A stretch of DNA of 23,228 nucleotides from a virus. Where the stretch lies: IMG/VR virus record IMGVR_UViG_3300023179_000532, positions 1 through 23,228 of that record. The stretch is one strand, 5' to 3'. A program made the position numbers and the translations under genes. Shown here one piece after another: positions 2,109 through 22,533 of the stretch (position 1 is its first letter; each line of letters starts with the position of its first letter). Under the pieces are notes generated by a model. That model saw only the letters and a list, made by a program, of their open reading frames with translations, did no database searches and had not been told where the DNA came from.

Positions 2109-3485
2109 TTACCGTAATCCGGCTAGTCTACGAATAGATTCTATACTTTCTGTTGGTTGACTTTGTTGACTACGTGGATTGTTTATTGACTGATCGGGTA
2201 CAGGACTCATGGCTACTTGTGCTTCCATACCAGTGTATTCTGGATAATTTTCTAAAAACCAGTTATCGATTATCATACGCATGTCCGATTCTGGTCCTTG
2301 TGTGGCTGCTGCCTGTGCAATAAGATCATTCAACTCATCATTATCAATTATTTGTCCTATAGCATTTTGAGCATCAAGTCCGTCAACTCCAGCTTTAATC
2401 GGCTTTTGTAACAATTCTTTTAACTTATCAAAGTCAGGATCAGTGTCCGATTCCTCAATCTTATCTGTCCAATCTTCAAACTCGTTAACAAACTTCCCTT
2501 CACCAACTTGCCTTTGCTGATAAGCTCTATACACATAGGGTAGAGCACCGGTCAAACGATCATCAAACATCTTTTTAACAAAACGTTCTTTAAGAGCATC
2601 AATGTCATAATCTTCTTCTATACTACGCTCAGGAATGAAAGATTCTGCAAACTGATGATATCCTTTGGTCCTTCCCATACGGTTTAAACTGCTTCGTAAA
2701 AGTTTATACCGTTCTACCGCACTTTCTACCATGCCAGCAGTCTCTGTATCTTCAAATTGACGATTTCTAGTACTACGAACAAAAAAAGCAAGGTTATTCA
2801 TTTCTTCGGCCATGCCCTGTATGTGCTGTCCAGGTTCATCGTAGATTTTACCACCATGAGCTAGATGTTGCGCCATAGCCCTACCTAATCCCAGCTTGTT
2901 ATACGGCATTCTAAATCTTTCGCCTTCGGCTGTTTCTACAAACATGCTTTCTATTTTACGACTACGAGCACCCGGCTGTTCCTCGTTTACCGCTTCACTG
3001 TGACGAACTATTAAACGAGTAGGACCAAATTCCTGTATACTGGTTCTTGTGGTACCATGCCATTGTATACTTTCTGATACCGGTGACTCGTGAGTCTTAT
3101 AGGCTTTAGTTGTTTTAGCTATCTGCTCGGTGTCACGTTTTTTAAGATTAGAACGATTTATATCTCTAACATCAAAGGCTAACATATTACGTTTAGCAAA
3201 TTGACGCATACTTCTCAAAAAGCCTTCCCATTCTTGCTCTTGTTCTGGACTAAACTCTTGATCTAAATCTCTATTGTAGGTTACTTTCAATGATTTATTA
3301 TCAACAATAGATATATTAATTTCTCCATGTTTGATTCCGTCGCTAGTAGAATATTTAAAATTAAAAAATCTTGCTTGTTGCGGATCATCGGTTGGCTTGG
3401 CTTCTTCGTCACCAATGGTGATAGGATCAAAACGACTGCGTACTTTGTTAAACAGCTCGTCGGCAATTTTTTCAATATTTTTCAT
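2109..3485 (-). CDS. Conserved marine T4-like phage protein, function unknown (458 aa)
   Basis: I recognise this as a type often seen in marine T4-like phages but know of no demonstrated function. The N-terminal part (about 20-110) has an alpha/beta pattern ending FAKRNMLAFDVRDINRSNL. A middle segment (about 140-225) carries WHGTTRTS, RLIVRHSEAVN and FVETAEGERFRMPYNKLGLGRAMAQHL. The rest is helical and charged, and a Gln/Pro/Ser-rich linker leads to a C-terminal ESIRRLAGLR peptide resembling LQRLAGV in the 90-aa protein at 5080. It starts 10 nt after the gp17 stop, with no clear Shine-Dalgarno and a GCTAAATA octamer 7 nt upstream. The position beside terminase suggests a virion or packaging role; this is inference. 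Confidence 0.8.
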   Translation of the reverse strand: MKNIEKIADELFNKVRSRFDPITIGDEEAKPTDDPQQARFFNFKYSTSDGIKHGEINISIVDNKSLKVTYNRDLDQEFSPEQEQEWEGFLRSMRQFAKRNMLAFDVRDINRSNLKKRDTEQIAKTTKAYKTHESPVSESIQWHGTTRTSIQEFGPTRLIVRHSEAVNEEQPGARSRKIESMFVETAEGERFRMPYNKLGLGRAMAQHLAHGGKIYDEPGQHIQGMAEEMNNLAFFVRSTRNRQFEDTETAGMVESAVERYKLLRSSLNRMGRTKGYHQFAESFIPERSIEEDYDIDALKERFVKKMFDDRLTGALPYVYRAYQQRQVGEGKFVNEFEDWTDKIEESDTDPDFDKLKELLQKPIKAGVDGLDAQNAIGQIIDNDELNDLIAQAAATQGPESDMRMIIDNWFLENYPEYTGMEAQVAMSPVPDQSINNPRSQQSQPTESIESIRRLAGLR

Positions 3486-3495
3486 GATACTATAT

Positions 3496-5064
3496 TTAGC
3501 TGACCATTATGAATGGCATTGGTTCAATTATCTCGTCAAATCTATCTTTAAATTTACTATCAATCTCAGGATCAAAACTTTGTAAAACCTGCGTTATTCT
3601 TATTGTTAATAACATACTTAAAACTAAATCGTCGGTTTCACCAATCTTGGCTGCAAAACTACCTGCACTAGCTACAAAGTTTTTTAATTCACTGATAAGA
3701 TTTCTACTATAGATTGTTAGTTTTTTACTTTCTATCATAGTTTTTAATTTGGCACAGGCAGCTAGTTTGCTTTTATTAGTCGTAGTAAAACCTTTACGAT
3801 ATCTACGACTTTGACCAATTTTATGAGGTTCGCTGATAAACATTCCACGAATATTTTCTTCGCCTAACTCATTTATACAAATTAAGGCAGCTTCACCTAA
3901 TGTATTATTTTCTACACTATAATAGATATTATTTTCTATTCCAGTTCTTTCATGAACATATGCACATATCTCTTTAAGCACATTAATCTGACCGGGTACC
4001 GGCGTTCGATTGTGCTGCCATTCAGCTACTTGTATACAATCAGGTAATTCTAATACCTGTATAGCAGCCGGATCACCCCCAGTACCCAAACTTGGATCTA
4101 AAGCCACTACATAGGTTTTATGTTTTTCTGGACGCTTATACCAACGTATCTGTCCTTGACGTTCAATGGGTTCTCTCCCTTCTAGATCGATCAACGTAGT
4201 CGATGCAATTAATGTTTCATCAAATATCAAAAACTCACAGTCCATTTCACGCCTAAAACGTTCTTCACCTAACTGTGACCTTTGTTCAGCTGCCCACCGT
4301 TCGTCCCTTTCGGGATGTTCGTCCCAGCGACTTTGATAGGATTTAAAACCATTTACGCCAAGTTCGGTAGTATTTCCATAATCATCTATACACTTATTAG
4401 CACCCTTCCATAGTTCTGCAAATTTATCTTCATCTGAATTGGGTGTAGATGTTATAATTGCCTTACCACCTGTAGCCAAAGTAGGAGATATAGATGTCCA
4501 GAATTCTTTGGCAATCGTTGGTCGAACATAAGCAAATTCATCGGCATATAGTAAAGATATTGACATACCACGACCGGTAGTTTCTGTGGTAGTTTGACTT
4601 ACTATACGCGATCCGTTGTCAAACTCTATACTGCCTTTGTTGTAACTAGTGGCGCCTGCACGAATATGGTCTGGACAAAATTCGTAGGCAAAGCGTACAC
4701 GAGTCATAATTTCGTAAGCACCTTGATATTTGTGAGCAGCTACTAAAATTGTACTATCGGGTATAAACATTGCGTACCATAGTAGATAACCAGCAGCACT
4801 AGTCGTTTTTCCAGACTGTCTGGGCATGAGACTGATACTAAATCTGTAATTATGATAGGTATGAATTAAACGTTTTTGATATTCATAAGGCTGATAAACC
4901 ATTCTTCCACGAGTAGGATGTTGGATGTAGAAAAAATTACTCATAAAGTATTCAGGCCCAGTCAATGAATCTGTACAGGCCACAAACTCACGAATTTGCT
5001 GTTCTGAAAAACTTTCAGCAGTGTGTGGTCTCTTAATGAGGGTATAATCTAGAGGCTTGCTCAT
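3496..5064 (-). CDS. 17: Terminase large subunit gp17 (packaging ATPase/nuclease)
   Basis: Motor that cuts concatemeric DNA and pumps it through the portal into the prohead. At 522 aa it is somewhat shorter than T4 gp17 (610). ATPase domain: Walker A PRQSGKTT at 81-88, Walker B LLYADE at 171-176 with the catalytic Glu following Asp, coupling motif TSTPN at 205-209. Nuclease domain (RNase H-like): acidic residues in VALDPS (D323), SVEN (E385) and ETDD (D478/D479), the expected metal-binding triad. All key residues are present, so it should be active. The start follows the 90-aa gene by 15 nt with only a weak ribosome site. Unlike T4, where gp16 and gp17 adjoin, three genes separate it from gp16 here. 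Confidence 0.95.
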   Translation of the reverse strand: MSKPLDYTLIKRPHTAESFSEQQIREFVACTDSLTGPEYFMSNFFYIQHPTRGRMVYQPYEYQKRLIHTYHNYRFSISLMPRQSGKTTSAAGYLLWYAMFIPDSTILVAAHKYQGAYEIMTRVRFAYEFCPDHIRAGATSYNKGSIEFDNGSRIVSQTTTETTGRGMSISLLYADEFAYVRPTIAKEFWTSISPTLATGGKAIITSTPNSDEDKFAELWKGANKCIDDYGNTTELGVNGFKSYQSRWDEHPERDERWAAEQRSQLGEERFRREMDCEFLIFDETLIASTTLIDLEGREPIERQGQIRWYKRPEKHKTYVVALDPSLGTGGDPAAIQVLELPDCIQVAEWQHNRTPVPGQINVLKEICAYVHERTGIENNIYYSVENNTLGEAALICINELGEENIRGMFISEPHKIGQSRRYRKGFTTTNKSKLAACAKLKTMIESKKLTIYSRNLISELKNFVASAGSFAAKIGETDDLVLSMLLTIRITQVLQSFDPEIDSKFKDRFDEIIEPMPFIMVS

Positions 5065-5079
5065 AGCTATACTTAGCGG

Positions 5080-7505: not shown

Positions 7506-8003
7506 TTACGAAGACTTTTTAGTTTCAAGGATTTGTTTTAACAAACTATTACGATCTAGTACAACTGCTTGTCCTTCTAACGGAGGCGATGTAGCACCGT
7601 CCCGATTGGCAGTTTGATCTAAACGCATCTTTTTTAATTGTAAATCAATCATTTTCAATTTTTTGTCAATTTTAGCTTGTTTGGCCGTAATAGCGTGTCC
7701 TAATAATACACCTGCTGTTTGTAGTATTTGGCCACTAAATCTGGCTTCTACGTTCATACCCAAATTCATTAAATCTTCAAATTTCTCTTTGGCCATATCA
7801 CTGAGTTCGTCTAATTCCTGATCAGCAGTATCAAGATCGCGAACCTGAGGCAGTGCCTGATCTATACGATCTATGATCGCTGATGCAGATTCTAGTTCTT
7901 GTTCTCCGATGCGAAAAAGTTCGCTAGCATCAACAATTTCCGGAGCCGGCTCGTTTGATGCTACATCGGGTAGATTAAATAATGTTTCTAATTTACGTGT
8001 CAT
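7506..8003 (-). CDS. 16: Terminase small subunit, gp16-like
   Basis: Regulates terminase cutting and stimulates the gp17 ATPase; forms rings in T4. At 165 aa it matches T4 gp16 (164). Pattern: acidic N-terminal segment with predicted short helix (ETLFNLPDV), a central pair of helices (about 35-70 and 75-130; GQILQTAGVLLGHAITAKQAKIDKKLKMIDLQLKKM) forming the coiled-coil core, then a short linker to the C-terminal peptide VLDRNSLLKQILE, similar to the gp17-binding tail of gp16. No recognisable Shine-Dalgarno; GCTAAATA overlaps the preceding gp4 stop 8 nt upstream. Assigned on length, helix pattern and location; moderately sure. Confidence 0.72.
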   Translation of the reverse strand: MTRKLETLFNLPDVASNEPAPEIVDASELFRIGEQELESASAIIDRIDQALPQVRDLDTADQELDELSDMAKEKFEDLMNLGMNVEARFSGQILQTAGVLLGHAITAKQAKIDKKLKMIDLQLKKMRLDQTANRDGATSPPLEGQAVVLDRNSLLKQILETKKSS

Positions 8004-8014
8004 AGTAAGGTTAT

Positions 8015-8452
8015 TTAGCGCCTACGAGCAGTGTTTTGGTAAATATCCTGTTCTGTCACTACTCGAAAACGCATACCATAATTTTTACAAAACTCTCTTG
8101 CAGCAGCCCATTTGGCCATGTTTAAAGCAACTGCTGCACGATCGCGTACACTGCGAGCGTTTTCCATACTGATTTCTTTTGTAGGCTTAACCTCTATAAC
8201 TTCTGCGTGTTTTACACCACTTTTATCTATATAGACCATCATAAAGTCTGGCACATATATTGTATTTTTACCTGTAAATGGATTGCGATATGGTACCATA
8301 AATGGCTCACTAGCCCATTGTAATACATTGGGATTGTTATCACAAAAGATCATAAAAGTAAATTCCCAACTACTACGATAGAAAGGAGTTTTACGTCCTA
8401 CGTACTTTTCTTTGTTTTTAACAATGTACGTACTTTGAGTATACTTACTCAT
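8015..8452 (-). CDS. 4: Head completion nuclease-fold protein, gp4
   Basis: T4 gp4 (also called gp50/65) finishes filled heads before tail joining and belongs to the TnsA/PD-(D/E)xK-like endonuclease fold. At 145 aa it matches the family. Visible: YRSSWEF (E30), YVPDF (D69), and IEVKP (E87, K89), the W-E / P-D / E-V-K set of that fold, followed by NMAKWAAAREFCKNYGMRFRVVTE, the typical C-terminal helix and strand. I chose the ATG at 8452 over the one at 8464 because it overlaps the upstream stop as TAATG, the arrangement used at two other junctions here. Confidence 0.9.
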   Translation of the reverse strand: MSKYTQSTYIVKNKEKYVGRKTPFYRSSWEFTFMIFCDNNPNVLQWASEPFMVPYRNPFTGKNTIYVPDFMMVYIDKSGVKHAEVIEVKPTKEISMENARSVRDRAAVALNMAKWAAAREFCKNYGMRFRVVTEQDIYQNTARRR

Positions 8453-15492: not shown

Positions 15493-15514
15493 ACTGGTCC
15501 TTTACTGGTCCTTT
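15493..15514. repeat. Perfect tandem repeat of ACTGGTCCTTT (2 copies)
   Basis: Two adjacent identical 11-bp units (15493-15503, 15504-15514) in the divergent promoter region, next to the plus-strand -10 element. With ACCAG at 15484-15488 and GGACC at 15471-15475 they form a cluster of direct and inverted GGTCC half-sites, a candidate operator. Confidence 0.85.
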
Positions 15515-15516
15515 AA

Positions 15517-15524
15517 AATAAATA
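15517..15524 (+). promoter_or_regulatory. Late-type promoter AATAAATA, start-proximal
   Basis: NATAAATA octamer ending 5 nt before the ATG at 15530, which would place transcription start on the A of the ATG. An alternative sigma70 reading is TTGACT (15490-15495), 18-nt spacer, TAAAAT (15514-15519), giving nearly the same start. Confidence 0.55.
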
Positions 15525-15529
15525 TTAGT

Positions 15530-15871
15530 ATGGAAAGAAATCAATGTCCGCAGTGCCAAAAACGTCTTGTGGCGATAAATTACTATAGAAACAATCGAAC
15601 GCATTATCGTAGCTTATGCACTCCCTGTATACACAAAAACAAACAAAAACAGGTTAAGGTACCATCGTGGGTACGATCGGGCTATAAGAAGGCCCTTAAA
15701 TGTGATCGTTGCGGATTTAAATTTAAACTAGCTGACCAAAGCTCAGTTTATTACGTGGATGGCAACATTGATAATAATAATTGGCTTAACTTAAAAACAA
15801 TTTGTGCTAACTGTCGAATCGAAGTAGCTAAATCTCGTTGGCGCCCATCTAATCTTACAGCAGATTTTTGA
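15530..15871 (+). CDS. Zinc-finger, degenerate HNH-like protein (113 aa)
   Basis: Four CxxC knuckles: C6/C9 with C30/C33, and C58/C61 with C92/C95, so two zinc sites are likely. The second half follows the HNH layout: CDRCGFKFK, then VYYVDGNIDNNNWLNL, then TICANC. In active HNH enzymes the middle is HH(I/V)DGN and the end is CxxCH; here both His are Tyr (Y74, Y75) and the final His is Arg (R96). The fold may be kept while cleavage is lost, leaving a DNA-binding protein. It recalls a small zinc protein common in marine T4-like phages. No Shine-Dalgarno; start-proximal promoter. Its 3' end overlaps the dNMP kinase gene by 17 bp, tail to tail. Confidence 0.85.
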   Translation: MERNQCPQCQKRLVAINYYRNNRTHYRSLCTPCIHKNKQKQVKVPSWVRSGYKKALKCDRCGFKFKLADQSSVYYVDGNIDNNNWLNLKTICANCRIEVAKSRWRPSNLTADF

Positions 15872-16457
15872 TCTGAGAATATAATTGCTCTATAGTGCCG
15901 TTGTTATCTATAACTAAATCAAATTTAGTGGTTACCCAACTATACTCACTTGGGTGTACACTAGGCCAATAAGTCTTCATTGTATCTACGCCATCTAGGG
16001 CATCTTCATACCATTTGGGTTTTGGACCTCTTTCTACACAGACTAAAAGTCCTTGGTTCGATCTTATTGCTTTTACTTCGTTTGGAAATCTAACATCGCT
16101 TATAACAATGTTGTCACTACTTTGTCGTAGTTTATTCTCTAAACTAGCTACCCAAATTTCATCATGAAAATAATTCCTACAAACATCAGTTCCCCAGTAT
16201 TGTAGAATCCATCTGGGAGTTAAGCCGGGAATACACAATCGTTGAGCCCACCATTGGTCAACTTGCTCACGCCATTCTCTGCTTTGGCGTGTTCTACCTT
16301 CTAGCATAGTTCTATCCCAACCAAAAACTGCTGCCACAGCATCTTTTAGAGTGCTTGCAAAACTTTCACGTCGAAATTCGTGATAATTTACTAGATAATC
16401 TGCTACGGTATCTTTGCCTGAGCCTATAAGTCCAGATATTCCAATAATTTTAGCCAT
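15855..16457 (-). CDS. 1: Deoxynucleoside monophosphate kinase (T4 gp1-like)
   Basis: Phosphorylates dNMPs to dNDPs to feed phage DNA synthesis from degraded host DNA. At 200 aa it is shorter than T4 gp1 (241). Visible: P-loop GLIGSGKDT at 9-17, FASTLKDAVAAVFGWDR (33-49), a Arg-rich substrate region (LEGRTRQSREWREQVDQ), LQYWGTDVCRNYFHDEIWV (130-to-90 region), and the Walker B-like strand NIVISDVRFPNEVKAI. A strong sigma70-type promoter (16464-16492) directly precedes the ATG with only 6 nt between -10 and ATG and no Shine-Dalgarno, so a leaderless mRNA is predicted. It is an early-type gene set inside structural genes. The gene end overlaps the convergent HNH-like gene. Confidence 0.9.
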   Translation of the reverse strand: MAKIIGISGLIGSGKDTVADYLVNYHEFRRESFASTLKDAVAAVFGWDRTMLEGRTRQSREWREQVDQWWAQRLCIPGLTPRWILQYWGTDVCRNYFHDEIWVASLENKLRQSSDNIVISDVRFPNEVKAIRSNQGLLVCVERGPKPKWYEDALDGVDTMKTYWPSVHPSEYSWVTTKFDLVIDNNGTIEQLYSQIKNLL

Positions 16458-16463
16458 GTAAAC

Positions 16464-16492
16464 AGTATAAAGGCGCAGACAGTGTCTGTCAA
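16464..16492 (-). promoter_or_regulatory. Sigma70-type promoter for dNMP kinase, with palindrome in spacer
   Basis: Minus strand: TTGACA (16492-16487), 17-nt spacer, TATACT (16469-16464), near-consensus. The spacer holds a perfect interrupted palindrome CAGACA-G-TGTCTG (16476-16488, plus strand), a likely operator. The -10 ends 6 nt before the ATG. The -35 box abuts the stop codon of the upstream 128-aa gene. Confidence 0.85.
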
Positions 16493-16493
16493 C

Positions 16494-16880
16494 CTAAACA
16501 CCATATTTGTTTTTCTTTATTTTACCAACTGGACTTACTCTGTTAACACTATCTGGTTCTAAGCTGCGATGATCTTTAACTACTTGATCTACATTTGTAT
16601 TAACTACATCAAAAGCCTGATGTAACATCCTATGCTCTAGTTCTGTAAAAGGCACTGCAACATTATTGGTATGAAACCACGTACGATCATCTATGTCTAA
16701 TTTTTTATCAGTTCCGTCGGCCATTGCAGAGGCCATGCCAACTCTATAAAAATTATAGGTACCATTGGTATGATAACCATCTCCAAATGCATGAGTTCTG
16801 TGCATGGCATTGGCTATGCTTTTTTTTAACTTACCTTTTTTACCCGGTTTACCTTCTATTACAAATTCATCTGCTCTCAT
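16494..16880 (-). CDS. Hypothetical protein (128 aa), N-terminal MRADEFVIEG
   Basis: Not recognised by function. It is basic at the start (GKKGKLKKS), then has a His-rich segment MHRTHAFGDGYHTNGTYNFYRVGMASAMADG and a mixed C-terminal half ending KIKKNKYGV. The opening MRADEFVIEG resembles MKPFTEFLMET of the 190-aa protein and contains VIE/G, similar to a prohead-protease site. I chose the ATG at 16880 because it overlaps the neck-gene stop as TAATG; the longer form from 16895 would overlap that gene by 16 bases. Coupling to the neck gene suggests a virion protein; inference only. Confidence 0.75.
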   Translation of the reverse strand: MRADEFVIEGKPGKKGKLKKSIANAMHRTHAFGDGYHTNGTYNFYRVGMASAMADGTDKKLDIDDRTWFHTNNVAVPFTELEHRMLHQAFDVVNTNVDQVVKDHRSLEPDSVNRVSPVGKIKKNKYGV

Positions 16881-18013
16881 TATCCTATCACCCAAGTCAA
16901 TGGCACACTACCGTCTATGTAAGTCTTGAGATCTTCCTCAAGTTTTTGCATTTCTTCTTTACTTTCTGCAATTAACGCAGTTCCATTTAACTGCGTACCG
17001 CCTTGCGGGCCAGCTAGACTAGCAAATTTGCTACGAGCCTCACCTAAAATTCCCTTAGCAAAACTGTATGCGTAATCCTGAATCCATGGATATATCATAT
17101 GATCATTTAACAACATAATATCTGGCTTGTAATTATATGTGTGGAGTAGAACAACTTCTGCCGGTTCATCTGAAACCGGACTGTATACTTCAGTTTTCCT
17201 TAAACCAAACAAACTTATTGTTGTATCTGCCAGTTGATTTGTAGCAATAATCGTAAATGTATTAGTAGCAACATTAGCAGTGGCTATAGTATAGCTACCG
17301 TTGTAACCAGTAACCGGACAATTTCTTATAGTTACACTATCCCCTACACCGACTTTCCATTCATCTTGTGTTACTAATGTAATTACACTACCAATAGCGG
17401 TCCCATTGGCTGACATACTTTGCAATCTTATATACTTTTTGCCTGTTTCAGGGATCTTTCTAACTAAAGTAAGTTTTCGTGTAGCAGGATTAAACGTAAA
17501 ATTAATGTGCCCACCGAACATTTTCATGGCTTGTTCCTGATACTGCACAAACATTTCATAGTTAGCCAGACCACCTACTCTACCAGCTACTAACATATAG
17601 GTGTTTAAATAACCAGAAGCAAAAGGTTCAAACTGACTAGCAGTTGTACCTGTAACAGATCCTATACCACGGCGGAACACTTGCCTAACTTGCGTAATTT
17701 CTCTAGGCAAAATGTATTCTTGTGTTTCTGGCAATAGCTCTAAAAAGCAATAACTTTCTTCTACACTATTATTGGCTCGCTGTCTGTATTTAATTAGAGC
17801 TTGACGTATGGCTAATTCGTAATGATCTTTATCCAACTCAACATCAACTAAACCATCTGCCAGTCTAAGACGAATATAGTCAATTATATCATTTTGTTTT
17901 GACACTAAAGAACTGTCAACTTGCGAATCTTCAAATTTAATAGGCCCAGGACCGCCTAAGCTCTGGGCTGCTATTGAACCTCTTGAATTTAGTCCTGGTT
18001 TAATTATTGGCAT
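16880..18013 (-). CDS. 13: Neck protein (gp13-type) with inserted beta domain
   Basis: Head-tail connector protein that closes the filled head. 377 aa versus 309 in T4 gp13. Conserved-looking parts: IIDYIRLRLADGLVDVELDK and HYELAIRQALIKYRQRANN (43-82), EYILPREITQVRQVFRRGIGS (99-119), and the C-terminal YNYKPDIMLLND, PWIQDYAYSFAKGILGEARSKF, LAGPQGGTQLNG block. These recall the marine-phage neck family. Residues about 195-280 interrupt this with an extra beta-rich segment (VGDSVTIRNCPVTGYNGSYTIATANVATNTFTI) of Ig-like or small barrel type, splitting strands that normally adjoin. AGGAT precedes the ATG, with a late-promoter variant at 18035-18042. gp13 versus another neck subunit is moderately sure. 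Confidence 0.75.
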   Translation of the reverse strand: MPIIKPGLNSRGSIAAQSLGGPGPIKFEDSQVDSSLVSKQNDIIDYIRLRLADGLVDVELDKDHYELAIRQALIKYRQRANNSVEESYCFLELLPETQEYILPREITQVRQVFRRGIGSVTGTTASQFEPFASGYLNTYMLVAGRVGGLANYEMFVQYQEQAMKMFGGHINFTFNPATRKLTLVRKIPETGKKYIRLQSMSANGTAIGSVITLVTQDEWKVGVGDSVTIRNCPVTGYNGSYTIATANVATNTFTIIATNQLADTTISLFGLRKTEVYSPVSDEPAEVVLLHTYNYKPDIMLLNDHMIYPWIQDYAYSFAKGILGEARSKFASLAGPQGGTQLNGTALIAESKEEMQKLEEDLKTYIDGSVPLTWVIG

Positions 18014-18034
18014 TATATGGATCCTGTGATATTG

Positions 18035-18042
18035 TATTTACC
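18035..18042 (-). promoter_or_regulatory. Late-promoter variant GGTAAATA for the neck gene
   Basis: One-base departure from NATAAATA on the minus strand, 21 nt before the ATG at 18013, the same spacing as the better late promoters in this window. Located in the 44-bp gap after the 393-aa gene. Confidence 0.4.
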
Positions 18043-18057
18043 GCAGGACCCCGAAGT

Positions 18058-19239
18058 TCATCCAACTCTTAGTAAGATGGTTTCCTCGTTTAATCTACCA
18101 TTAAGTACTACTTCAACCGCCTTAATATCTTTTAAGAAACTACGTAATGCAACCTTACCTGCTTTAGCAAAGTCTTTTAATTGTTCCTCAGGCTTTCTTA
18201 GCGTCTTAGCCACACTTTTTACTTCATCGTAGCCAACAATACTTGTACCTTTTATACCAAGTTGTCCCATGGCCTCTGCAACATAGCGTCCTAGCTTTCT
18301 AGTACGGGTGTTATAGATCCAAAGCTCTTGACTACCTATAATATCAACTGGGTTAATACTTACTAATCTAAGTTTAGCGTCCGATTTATTATACTTTAGT
18401 TTAGATACAACCTTTTCTTTACTAGGAGCCTTACGTACTCGAGCTTTTTTAACTGCTTTTTTAACACCACGATATTCTTGTATGGCGGCAAGTAAGTCAG
18501 CAACAAACCTGCCAATTCTAGAAAAGTCTGTTTTTTTGTAATGCTTATAAGCCTCGGTGAGCTGTACGTCCTTGCGCCCTTGTGCCTCAGCTAATTCTAG
18601 TACACGATTTTCGTAGACCTGTGCAATTTTGTTAAGTTGACTCTGTGGTACATTGTTTTTAGTAAGAAAATCATAGGGACGAAAGTCAACAGTTTGACCT
18701 TTAATAACTTGGTCATAATGGCCTTCTATTTCTCCTATTAGTTCGCTGGTCTTTTCTTGTAAACGATCTTGTATTGTTACTTTACGCTCTACTACTTTAC
18801 CAGCAGACAGCACAGCAGGTTCACCTGTATCGCCACTGTTAGCGGCCAAACGTAAACTATATTCAACTTGGTCATGTATATACTTGACATGCTTGTCTTT
18901 CAACGGCATACCTTTTCTATGAGCCATTATTAGGCTACAAGGAGTCATTATAATGTATCTGTCACCGATTCTTTCAAATCGGTTGATGGTATCTTTATCA
19001 AACTTACTATTACGTCTAAGCCAGTCAACTAGATATTTTCTGGTGTCTTTGGTGCTGTAATGATAATTGTAATACTGAAAACTTTTACGTAGATGATGGT
19101 CAAAAGCATCATCGTCGAATTCAAGTGCTCGCTCAGTGTCCCAATTTGGCTCGGGCCCTGTGGCTTTTTCGTCGGCTGCTAGAAGTCTGGCACTAGGTTC
19201 TTTTTTCCTAGGTACTTTAATTCCCTTAATTATAGCCAT
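18058..19239 (-). CDS. Conserved marine T4-like phage protein, unknown function (393 aa)
   Basis: I do not know its function; it resembles proteins found near neck genes in marine T4-like phages. Soluble, no membrane segment. Visible: Pro/Lys-rich N-terminus (IKVPRKKEPSARLL), a Tyr-rich helical segment FDHHLRKSFQYYNYHYSTKDTRKYL (47-71), FERIGDRYIIMTPCSLIMAH, long charged helices with coiled-coil character (about 155-260), a very basic linker (VKKAVKKARVRKAPSKEK) and a compact C-terminal alpha/beta domain (LRLVSINPVDIIGSQELWIYNTRTRKLG). AGGAG lies 6 nt before the ATG and overlaps the 84-aa gene stop, so the two are cotranscribed. The basic linker suggests nucleic-acid contact; inference. Confidence 0.8.
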   Translation of the reverse strand: MAIIKGIKVPRKKEPSARLLAADEKATGPEPNWDTERALEFDDDAFDHHLRKSFQYYNYHYSTKDTRKYLVDWLRRNSKFDKDTINRFERIGDRYIIMTPCSLIMAHRKGMPLKDKHVKYIHDQVEYSLRLAANSGDTGEPAVLSAGKVVERKVTIQDRLQEKTSELIGEIEGHYDQVIKGQTVDFRPYDFLTKNNVPQSQLNKIAQVYENRVLELAEAQGRKDVQLTEAYKHYKKTDFSRIGRFVADLLAAIQEYRGVKKAVKKARVRKAPSKEKVVSKLKYNKSDAKLRLVSINPVDIIGSQELWIYNTRTRKLGRYVAEAMGQLGIKGTSIVGYDEVKSVAKTLRKPEEQLKDFAKAGKVALRSFLKDIKAVEVVLNGRLNEETILLRVG

Positions 19240-19248
19240 TTGCTACTC

Positions 19249-19503
19249 CTAAATTGACAATAATGCAATTGTAACATATTGATCAAGGCTTGTCACTGAT
19301 TCTTCGAACTTGTTGCGTAGATCCAACAAATGTCTACTAGGACGTCCTGTACGCATAAAATTGACATTTTCCTTACTAATTTCTCTAAAAATGTTGTCGC
19401 AATTACGCAACATTCGTTTGAGATCTCGCTTGACTGACCAATTGTCGATTTTAATTATTCTGCTATCAAGTTCTTTGTATATTTGCAGTGTTTCTTCGTA
19501 CAT
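19249..19503 (-). CDS. Small conserved hypothetical protein (84 aa)
   Basis: All-helical small protein (YEETLQIYKELDSRIIKID, VKRDLKRMLRNCDNIFREI, LDLRNKFEESVTSLDQYVT), probably a helical bundle; it resembles a small family of marine T4-like phages without known function. It is the first gene of a minus-strand unit. Its sigma70-type promoter (19510-19538) ends 6 nt before this ATG, giving a leaderless transcript. The only Shine-Dalgarno, AAGGA, is 14 nt from this ATG and fits better an out-of-frame ATG at 19508 that opens a 17-codon frame. I keep 19503 because the frame is long and coherent. Confidence 0.75.
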   Translation of the reverse strand: MYEETLQIYKELDSRIIKIDNWSVKRDLKRMLRNCDNIFREISKENVNFMRTGRPSRHLLDLRNKFEESVTSLDQYVTIALLSI

Positions 19504-19509
19504 GGCATT

Positions 19510-19538
19510 ATTATATATCCTTTTTGTTGTCCCATCAA
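19510..19538 (-). promoter_or_regulatory. Sigma70-type promoter for the 84-aa gene
   Basis: Minus strand: TTGATG (19538-19533), 17-nt spacer, TATAAT (19515-19510, full consensus). Expected start at or within a base of the ATG at 19503. Confidence 0.7.
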
Positions 19539-19580: not shown

Positions 19581-20687
19581 GTGCCCAGATTAAGTCTTTG
19601 GAAAGATGGTGTTCGCGGTCGAGACTACCAATTTATAGACAGAAGAATTTCCGAAATGTTTACTATTTCGGGCACCGGCGTTCTAGTACACAAATACCTA
19701 GGACCCATTGATCAAGGTCAAAGTGACGATGTTACCCGTCCATCATATACCAATGACAGCGAAAGAAATATACAAGATTTACTATTTTTAGAAAATAGAG
19801 ATAGAAAATACGACACCGATGTATATAAATTACGAGGAATTTATCAAGTCACCGACAATGCTTTTGATCTTACACAGTTTGGATTGTTTTTGCAGACAGG
19901 TACACTTTTTATTACCTTTCATATCAACGACATGATCACTATTTTAGGTCGTAGGATTATGAATGGTGACGTTCTGGAATTGGAACATCTAATAGATTAT
20001 GATACTCTTGATCCAGATTTACCTATAGCTTTAAAAAGATTTTTTGTAGTTTCTGACTGTACAAGGGCGGCCGAAGGATACAGCCCAACTTGGTGGCCGC
20101 ATTTATGGCGTTGCAAGATCAATCCATTAGTTGACAGTCAAGAATATAAAGACATATTAGATAATTTAATTACCGTAGACACGCCCGAAGGTATTCCTGA
20201 AGAATCAACTGAATCTCTGCGAGATATATTAAGTACCTATAATCAATTGAACGATATAAACGATATTATTGTGGAACAGGCGGAGGTGGAGATTCCAACC
20301 AGTGGTTATAGTGTAAATGAATTTTATCATAAACCAACCGAAGAGGACGAAACTCCAAATTATAAAGTTAATGCATATCTAAGTGGTACAGGTGTTCCTC
20401 CCAATGGCATAATTGCTACGAGTGGTATCGCCTTTCCGTCTAATCCTGACGTTGGCGACTATTGCCTTAGATTAGACTACAAACCAAACAGACTTTTTAG
20501 ATATAATGGAACAAGATGGATAAAGATCGAAGATGCCGTGAGAACCAATATTACTAATAATAGTGTAGATAATAAAACTCTACGTAATAGTTTCCTTACT
20601 AATAGTACCACCTTTGTTGACAGACGTGGTAATACTCAACCAGAAAAACAAAGCCTACATGATTTATTAAAACCTAAAGTCGATTAA
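19581..20687 (+). CDS. Conserved marine-phage virion protein (368 aa), function unassigned
   Basis: Starts with GTG, with AAGGATGAG 3-7 nt before it. Resembles a structural protein family of marine T4-like phages that sits next to gp15; I cannot name a T4 equivalent with confidence (a neck or tail-completion part such as gp14 is possible by position). Visible: MPRLSLWKDGVRGRDYQFID, a core with QDLLFLENRDRKYDTDVYKLRGIYQV (about 65-90), FLQTGTLFITFHINDMITILGRRIMNGDVLEL (103-134), and TWWPHLWRCKINPLVDSQEYKDI. The C-terminal third is a linker plus a small module VGDYCLRLDYKPNRLFRYNGTRW (about 300-322), a Trp/Tyr-rich pattern seen in phage surface proteins. It ends 2 bp before gp15 starts. Confidence 0.8.
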   Translation: MPRLSLWKDGVRGRDYQFIDRRISEMFTISGTGVLVHKYLGPIDQGQSDDVTRPSYTNDSERNIQDLLFLENRDRKYDTDVYKLRGIYQVTDNAFDLTQFGLFLQTGTLFITFHINDMITILGRRIMNGDVLELEHLIDYDTLDPDLPIALKRFFVVSDCTRAAEGYSPTWWPHLWRCKINPLVDSQEYKDILDNLITVDTPEGIPEESTESLRDILSTYNQLNDINDIIVEQAEVEIPTSGYSVNEFYHKPTEEDETPNYKVNAYLSGTGVPPNGIIATSGIAFPSNPDVGDYCLRLDYKPNRLFRYNGTRWIKIEDAVRTNITNNSVDNKTLRNSFLTNSTTFVDRRGNTQPEKQSLHDLLKPKVD

Positions 20688-20689
20688 TA

Positions 20690-22123
20690 ATGAGTACATT
20701 TTTTTATTCAGGTCAAGTACGTAGATTTTTACAACAATTTATAAGATTAGTCAGTAATTTTGAAGTACAGCTTGGCAAAAACCGTCAAGGTGTTAGTACA
20801 TTGTTAAAGGTACCAGTCTATTACGGAGATAGTACCAGACAGGTAGCTAGCATACTTAATCTAAACAGTGAAAATAAATTGCATTCGGTACCAGCAATGA
20901 CTGTTACCATAAACCAAATCAAATATGATAGGTCTAGAGTGCAGGAACCTTATCATGTAAGTAAAGTACAGGTAAGACAAAGAGCCTATGACCCAGATAC
21001 CGGAGACTTTACACAATATCAAGGAGATATGTTTACTGTAGAGAGACTAATGCCTGTGCCTTACATGTTGACCCTAAAACTTGATGTATGGACAAGTAAT
21101 ACAGAACAAAAGTTACAATTATTTGAACAAATCAGTGTATTGTTTAATCCAAGTTTGGAAGTACAAAACAGTGACAGTTATGTTGATTGGACAAGTCTTA
21201 GCTATATTACTCTCACAGAGATAAATTGGACCAGCAGAAATATTCCAATGGGTGCCGAAGATGTCATTGATGTAATGACTTATAACTTTGAGTTACCAAT
21301 TTGGATTAGTGCCCCGGCCAAAGTTAAGAAGATGGGCGTTATACAAAAAATTATTGCCAGTATCTACGATCCAAACGACCCTATTGAAAATGGTGCAGAC
21401 ACATTTGATATAGAAGCTAGTATATTAACTGGTAGACGAATTTTTACTCCGTTGAATTCAAGTATATTATGGATAGGTAATTACCTAAAACTGTACTTGT
21501 CAGATAATCAAGTTCAATTTAGAGACACTATAGATCCCAAATTAGAGGTAGGAAATTGGTTTGTAGCAGTCAGACACTACGGTGAACTGGCAAATTATCC
21601 GCCCGATGCTGATTTATTAGTCAATGGAATAACACAAATTCGTATAGAAACTGATAGTGGTACAGTAGTAGGAACTGTGGCCTACCATCCCACCGACGAA
21701 AGTTTATTGATCTTCAATGTCGACGCAGATACTTTACCTGTCAACACTTTGGATCCTGTCAATGCTATAATTGATCCATTTAATCTTACAATAACAGCAA
21801 ATTTAGAATCTCCTTCAACAGGAGATAGATATCTTATACTTAATCCAATCGGTCATCCCGACAATGATGATGCAGATCCAACCGACATAGATGGTCCTGA
21901 ATTTTGGAATAGAGCAGGTCAGACACAATTAATTGCCCGTGCCAGTGACATAATTGAATGGGATGGTGTCAAATGGTTTGTAGCCTTTGACAGTGCTGGC
22001 ACCATCAGTATACAATATGTAACTAATTTAACTACAAGCATTCAATATAAATGGAAAGACTATCAATGGACCAAAAGCGTAGAAGGCCTTTATGGCGTAG
22101 GGACATGGAGCCTCGTAATATAA
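20690..22123 (+). CDS. 15: Tail sheath stabiliser/completion protein gp15
   Basis: In T4, gp15 caps the finished tail and joins it to the neck. The first 220 residues fit: FFYSGQVRRFLQQFIRLVSNFEVQLG, LLKVPVYYGDSTRQVASIL, PAMTVTINQIKYDRSRVQEP, PVPYMLTLKLDVWTSN then EQISVLFNPSLEVQNSD, and the closing MTYNFELPIWISAP. The remaining 250 residues are an extra Asp/Asn-rich beta region (GRRIFTPLNSS, VGNWFVAVRHYGE, DRYLILNPIG, YKWKDYQW) absent from T4 gp15 (272 aa). It follows the 368-aa gene by 2 bp, in the same unit. Its end overlaps the start of the Nudix gene. Confidence 0.85.
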   Translation: MSTFFYSGQVRRFLQQFIRLVSNFEVQLGKNRQGVSTLLKVPVYYGDSTRQVASILNLNSENKLHSVPAMTVTINQIKYDRSRVQEPYHVSKVQVRQRAYDPDTGDFTQYQGDMFTVERLMPVPYMLTLKLDVWTSNTEQKLQLFEQISVLFNPSLEVQNSDSYVDWTSLSYITLTEINWTSRNIPMGAEDVIDVMTYNFELPIWISAPAKVKKMGVIQKIIASIYDPNDPIENGADTFDIEASILTGRRIFTPLNSSILWIGNYLKLYLSDNQVQFRDTIDPKLEVGNWFVAVRHYGELANYPPDADLLVNGITQIRIETDSGTVVGTVAYHPTDESLLIFNVDADTLPVNTLDPVNAIIDPFNLTITANLESPSTGDRYLILNPIGHPDNDDADPTDIDGPEFWNRAGQTQLIARASDIIEWDGVKWFVAFDSAGTISIQYVTNLTTSIQYKWKDYQWTKSVEGLYGVGTWSLVI

Positions 22124-22533
22124 CACAGGGCGTAGGCGCATTAATCTATGCTAAAGATACTAAACGTTATTTGTTTCTGTTGCGTCAAGGGAGAAGTTGG
22201 TCCATGACCTGGGCCTTACCGGGCGGACGTGCGGAAGTCAATGAACGCATGGATAAGGCCTTGGCTCGTGAGATACAGGAAGAATTGGGAGGTACTATAC
22301 CCGATGCTGAACTTATTTTAATAGAAAGATTTGTCAGTACCAATGGTAAATTTGTTTATTATACTTACTTTATTTCAGTTGATTATGAATTTGTACCAGT
22401 GCTCAATCACGAACACATAGGCTATGCTTGGTTGCCAATTGAACATGCCCCAAAACCCTTGCACCCGGGATTAGCAAGAAGTTTTGCAAGTCGATCAGTG
22501 ACTAGTAAGCTCAACAGTGTTTGTGCAAAATAA
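22105..22533 (+). CDS. Nudix hydrolase
   Basis: Hydrolyses a nucleoside diphosphate linked to another moiety; substrate not readable from sequence. With the start used here it is 142 aa. Full Nudix box: G41-x5-E47-x7-R55-E56-x2-E59-E60-L-G62 (GGRAEVNERMDKALAREIQE plus ELGG). The domain begins at ITQGVGALIYA, so ATG 22105 gives a minimal N-terminus and a 19-bp overlap with gp15. In-frame ATGs at 22066 (GGAAAG about 8-10 nt upstream) and 22051 are possible and would add 13 or 18 basic residues. It may clean up modified nucleotides or sugar-nucleotides during infection. Its stop abuts the convergent LamG gene stop. Confidence 0.9.
   Translation: MEPRNITQGVGALIYAKDTKRYLFLLRQGRSWSMTWALPGGRAEVNERMDKALAREIQEELGGTIPDAELILIERFVSTNGKFVYYTYFISVDYEFVPVLNHEHIGYAWLPIEHAPKPLHPGLARSFASRSVTSKLNSVCAK

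Follow-up and report, generated by a model that had tools for sequence, protein, structure and literature searches.

Promoter boxes beside start codons

The 23.2-kb window analysed here, meaning the whole stretch of 23,228 nucleotides, is a fragment of an uncultured virus record and carries genes for a terminase, a tail sheath-like protein and a tail tube, together with those for a UvsX-like recombinase, a single-strand DNA-binding protein and a deoxynucleoside monophosphate (dNMP) kinase. The jumbo T4-related phages PA5oct, Phosso and Atu_ph07 provided the nearest cultured matches for its terminase, its tail tube and the protein starting at 19581, at identities of about 55% or less. No tRNA genes were detected in the window or in eight related contigs, and no gene for ribosomal protein S21, a candidate phage factor for translation without a Shine-Dalgarno (SD) sequence, in 15 contigs. 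A Nudix hydrolase frame (22051-22533) overlaps the end of the sheath-like gene, which ends at 22123. A 252-aa protein that clustering had grouped with the 18013 product was not called as such, since a direct ortholog search did not place it there.

Two genes on the minus strand are preceded by sigma70-type boxes. The dNMP kinase gene (15855-16457; phrog_139, E=8e-53) has the -10 box TATACT (16464-16469) 6 nt before its ATG, and the gene for an 84-aa protein of unknown function (19249-19503) has TATAAT (19510-19515) at the same distance; both boxes and gaps agree with the original prediction, which lacked the consensus -35 box of the kinase promoter, TTGACA (16487-16492), separated from the -10 by a 17-bp spacer. 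The -35-like element of the 19503 gene is TTGATG (19533-19538, spacer also 17); most of its relatives have TTGACA. These two genes and their relatives meet the criteria for sigma70-type promoters (TTGACA, a spacer of 16-18 bp and TATAAT). A palindrome, CAGACAcTGTCTG, lies within the kinase promoter (16476-16488), and in two relatives (L006 and L007) different palindromes overlap the -10 box of the kinase gene; these palindromes are possibly operators.

The remaining cases involve T4-type late boxes. On the plus strand, AATAAATA (15517-15524) stands 5 nt before the ATG of the 15530 gene (15530-15871), as had been described. The encoded 113-aa protein combines paired CxxC motifs with a degenerate HNH-like motif in which tyrosine often stands in for histidine; it is conserved within this phage group, with no match among cultured phages and no Pfam family. 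A direct repeat, ggtccttt (15496-15514, 11 nt from start to start), lies immediately 5′ of this late box and is retained in close relatives, others having an inverted repeat like CCTTTGCAAAGG instead; placed between two divergent late promoters, it resembles a binding site. On the minus strand, a virion structural protein gene (2109-3485; phrog_13484) is preceded by GCTAAATA (3493-3500) with a gap of 7 nt, and a gene of unknown function (7506-8003) by TAAATA (8012-8017) with a gap of 8 nt. Both had been listed as weaker cases with the same gaps; the latter is the weakest and can only be called a possible member. The gene for the terminase large subunit (3496-5064, minus strand; phrog_36964, E=4e-118) has a variant box, TAAGTA (5070-5075), in the arrangement GCTAAGTA-5-ATG, and probably belongs to the same class.

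A well-placed SD was absent from the 15530, 16457 and 19503 genes, the last of which has AAGGA only at 14 nt upstream. Genes that had been put forward as a contrast (11220, 11913, 15414, 18013 and 19581) do possess late boxes followed by leaders, and the AGGA-type ribosome site attributed to all of them was found in most only. Across the group, an AGGA, GGAG or GAGG motif occurred in 57 of 79 leadered genes and in none of 53 genes with a box beside the start codon (hereafter leaderless-type), which meets the expectation that leaderless genes lack an SD. This contrast is partly mechanical, as a box at -11 to -6 fills the SD position. The families of the tail tube (11913) and sheath (15414) were never leaderless-type and had an SD in all members; expression in these genomes thus appears mixed, with leaderless-type genes beside ordinary SD-led, leadered late genes.

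Conservation, register and excess over chance

The short spacing recurred in orthologues of each gene. In the 15530 family, TAAATA precedes the ATG by 4 or 5 nt in 52 of 57 sequences spanning 37-100% identity; the corresponding counts were 7/7 at 5-7 nt for the 3485 family and 5/6 at 4-5 nt for the terminase, and relatives of the 8003 gene had either form of the box, TAAATA or TAAGTA, with a gap of about 4-5 nt. The promoter criterion was met in six of seven members of the 19503 family; in the seventh (L007) TATAAT has the 6-nt gap and the -35 is weak. Among the dNMP kinases, nine close sequences have retained TTGAC-17-TA...T-(5-7)-ATG without an SD, although the rest of the sequence has diverged; in distant dNMP kinases the same promoter lies mostly about 12-25 nt farther upstream, often with an SD between. 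Loss of the spacing in close relatives, which would have refuted the idea, was not seen: orthologues keep it although the intervening sequence has diverged. The class is not confined to non-structural or unknown genes as first proposed, since its members in relatives include terminase, tail-tube-like, gp25-like baseplate and other virion proteins.

With cut-offs of 5-7 nt for sigma70-type and 4-8 nt for late-type gaps, five of the 21 genes in the window have the leaderless geometry against 0.26 expected from dinucleotide-preserving shuffles of the upstream regions, and none of 2000 shuffles reached five; two are sigma70-type (0.01 expected) and three late-type (0.25 expected). The window and eight related contigs together gave 69 of 555 genes against 5.0 expected (0/100 shuffles), and the control genomes T4, PA5oct, Phosso and Atu_ph07 gave 5 of 1433 against 12.5 expected. 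These genome-wide counts take the longest ATG frame as the start, which is sometimes wrong. Counting -10-to-ATG distances in relatives revealed the peak that had been predicted: TAAATA clusters 4-5 nt and TATAAT about 6 nt before the ATG, distinct from a leadered peak near 17-35 nt that was the only one in control genomes. The short-gap peak was missing from T4, PA5oct, Phosso, Atu_ph07, P-SSM2, HTVC008M, SCTP-2 and RM378 (50 kb examined for each of the last four), bearing out the view that this geometry is unusual for T4-like phages. Orthologues in PA5oct, Phosso and Atu_ph07 had no leaderless geometry, and several were plainly leadered.

In bacteria, leaderless genes are inferred from a TANNNT about 10-12 bp upstream of the start codon (Zheng et al. 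2011, PMC3160421). In T4, the first T of the 8-bp late box is at -13 (PMC2988020); +1 is therefore the sixth base after the box, and a 5-nt gap sets +1 on the A of the ATG. A -10 position that would put +1 at the start codon, as required of a leaderless gene, is found at a gap of 5 for late and 6 for sigma70-type boxes, with variants at 4 and 7. Among 31 gap-5 genes, a T at -1 occurred in 30, compared with 38% of leadered and 34% of other genes, and in the leadered promoters of T4 and Atu_ph07 the commonest base at the fifth position after TAAATA is T and at the sixth A, with a similar pattern in PA5oct. The T(-1)A(+1) pair resembles the signature of a transcription start located on the start codon, a putative signal separate from the SD argument. 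Apart from TAAATA, by which they were selected, the same 31 genes favour A just before the box and have nothing strongly conserved near -35; they thereby fulfil the criterion for a T4-type late promoter, a TATAAATA-like box spanning -13 to -6 and no conserved -35. The gap is 4 instead of 5 in the majority of 15530 relatives and 7 in the majority of 19581 relatives; in such families transcription may start one base off or leave a leader of 1-3 nt.

Start codons follow a related pattern. Each of the 33 leaderless-type members of the 19581 family has ATG as its start codon, and the 11 others comprise five GTG, three TTG and three ATG. Leaderless initiation favours AUG, so this pattern fits a leaderless reading and satisfies the criterion of an AUG start, although it is confounded by phylogeny: only two changes of state occur on the tree, and the contrast is not evidence of many independent events. 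Independent-contrast tests had too little power, with just one or two changes of state to draw on. At a gap of 5, frames were opened by 44 ATG sites against no GTG and three TTG, a comparison that is also phylogenetically confounded. Nothing out of the ordinary was found in RNA structure at the starts.

Inverted late boxes also serve 16 non-redundant divergent gene pairs of the group, whose start codons are separated by 24-47 nt, a spacing that leaves no room for leaders; no such pair occurred in the control genomes. When viral contigs were searched for the version whose spacer is 9 nt, 80 of 84 sites among the matches listed open frames on both sides, and for the fused two-way box TATTTATAAATA 21 of 41 did so, again among the matches listed. 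The fused box is found at L062:4401-4430, in L066 and at further loci, with divergent start codons 24 nt apart. A gp55-family late sigma factor (phrog_12791, E about 1e-78) is encoded by three larger related contigs (G002, G003 and G005), and a T4-type late system therefore exists in the group; that search covered the related contigs only, not the window, itself a fragment. The geometry, its conservation, its statistical excess and the late sigma gene of the relatives can all be read from the sequences themselves.

Probable leaderless transcription units and other readings

The best explanation, and in our judgement a very probable one, is that these genes form leaderless or nearly leaderless transcription units (leaders of at most about 3 nt), although both the start sites and translation from a 5′-AUG are inferred from the DNA. 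RNA polymerase would start on the A of the ATG. A host sigma70-type factor would read the TTGACA-17-TATAAT boxes of the dNMP kinase and 19503 genes, presumably early, and a phage gp55-type late sigma the T4-type TAAATA boxes of the 15530 and 3485 genes and probably those of 5064 and 8003. Ribosomes would then start on the 5′-terminal AUG without SD pairing. In the absence of mapped 5′ ends, leaderless initiation itself remains a sequence-based inference.

These boxes might alternatively be chance occurrences, nearby ones having been picked out of the many such hexamers in AT-rich DNA, and the GC content of 38-47% in the window and related contigs does make TAAATA and TATAAT frequent. For the class as a whole this is hardly credible, being excluded by the shuffles, by the controls, three of four of which have a GC content similar to or below that of the group, and by conservation across orthologues; single weak cases such as the 8003 gene could still be due to chance. 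Nor is it at all likely that the starts are misplaced, with true starts downstream behind an SD and the boxes serving as ordinary leadered promoters. Calling the longest ATG frame does sometimes err, as in the gap-1 calls of the 19581 family, but the kinase ATG coincides with the conserved N-terminus MAKIIGISG before the P-loop in close relatives, and that of the 15530 gene with the conserved N-terminus MERK.CP.C.

A somewhat less improbable, though still poorly supported, reading holds that the boxes are real but secondary, each giving an internal or minor start or else acting as an AU-rich region to which ribosomes bind, with the main promoters upstream. Read-in from upstream is possible at the kinase gene, 36 nt upstream of which a codirectional gene ends, and AU-rich leaders can support initiation without an SD. 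The 15530 and 19503 genes, however, have divergent neighbours (15414, minus strand, and 19581, plus strand), so that their transcripts must start within spacers of 115 and 77 nt, respectively, or inside the other gene, and divergent start codons elsewhere are as near as 24 nt. An AU-rich ribosome site would also not need the register, the T at -1 or the full TTGACA-17-TATAAT arrangement, all of which are kept.

Leaderless or nearly leaderless units thus being preferred, confirmation of the 5′ ends would reveal late promoters merged with start codons in a T4-related group of uncultured freshwater phages, numerous in viral metagenomes, in which the ribosome-binding leader has been dropped for a defined set of genes and kept for others such as the tail sheath and tail tube. 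Two-way late promoters whose start codons are separated by as few as 24 nt would make a highly compact arrangement. Some gene families occur in both states, which allows a direct comparison of one gene with and without a leader. Late leaderless messages, including those of terminase and virion genes, may conceivably act as a switch if altered late ribosomes, whether through the phage or through host stress, prefer a 5′-AUG; this is an unlikely extension which, if true, would place takeover at the translational as well as the transcriptional level. The geometry also bears on gene calling, as SD-based start finders may misplace such starts, and on host prediction, where it would point to hosts that translate leaderless messages well; the suggested tie to the host's translation system is conjectural. 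One contig fell in a Chitinophagaceae bin in a scan of a genome collection, a host assignment that we distrust, as the early promoters have the canonical form (TTGACA/TATAAT) and contigs may be binned wrongly. A survey of far-T4 phages, membership of which is not claimed for the present group, likewise found no reliable host (PMC4360716).

Comparison with known systems

Leaderless messages and T4-type late promoters are each known already. Transcripts of the Thermus phages phiYS40 and P23-45 are often leaderless, and these phages resemble the present group in being lytic with many leaderless messages; they differ in host and in promoter systems, which are not T4-type late promoters. The leaderless mRNAs of lambda cI and of TA-led genes (PMC3160421) share the lack of an SD and a -10-like box some 10-12 bp upstream of the start codon, whereas in the phage group part of the class has a T4-type late box, which a phage sigma factor presumably recognises, and the class extends to virion genes. 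With the T4-type late promoters that depend on gp55, gp33 and gp45 (PMC2988020), the group shares a TATAAATA-like box, no conserved -35, a matching start-site distance and the gp55-family sigma of the three related contigs. In T4 and the other controls, however, the late box is mostly separated from the gene by about 20-35 nt, a stretch that usually contains an SD, whereas in the phage group it abuts the ATG and sometimes stands back to back with a second box serving a divergent gene. No report of leaderless starts in T4-type phages was found in the open-licence literature, and within the literature searched the fusion of leaderless starts with late promoters across many genes of a T4-related group, two-way promoters included, appears to be new.
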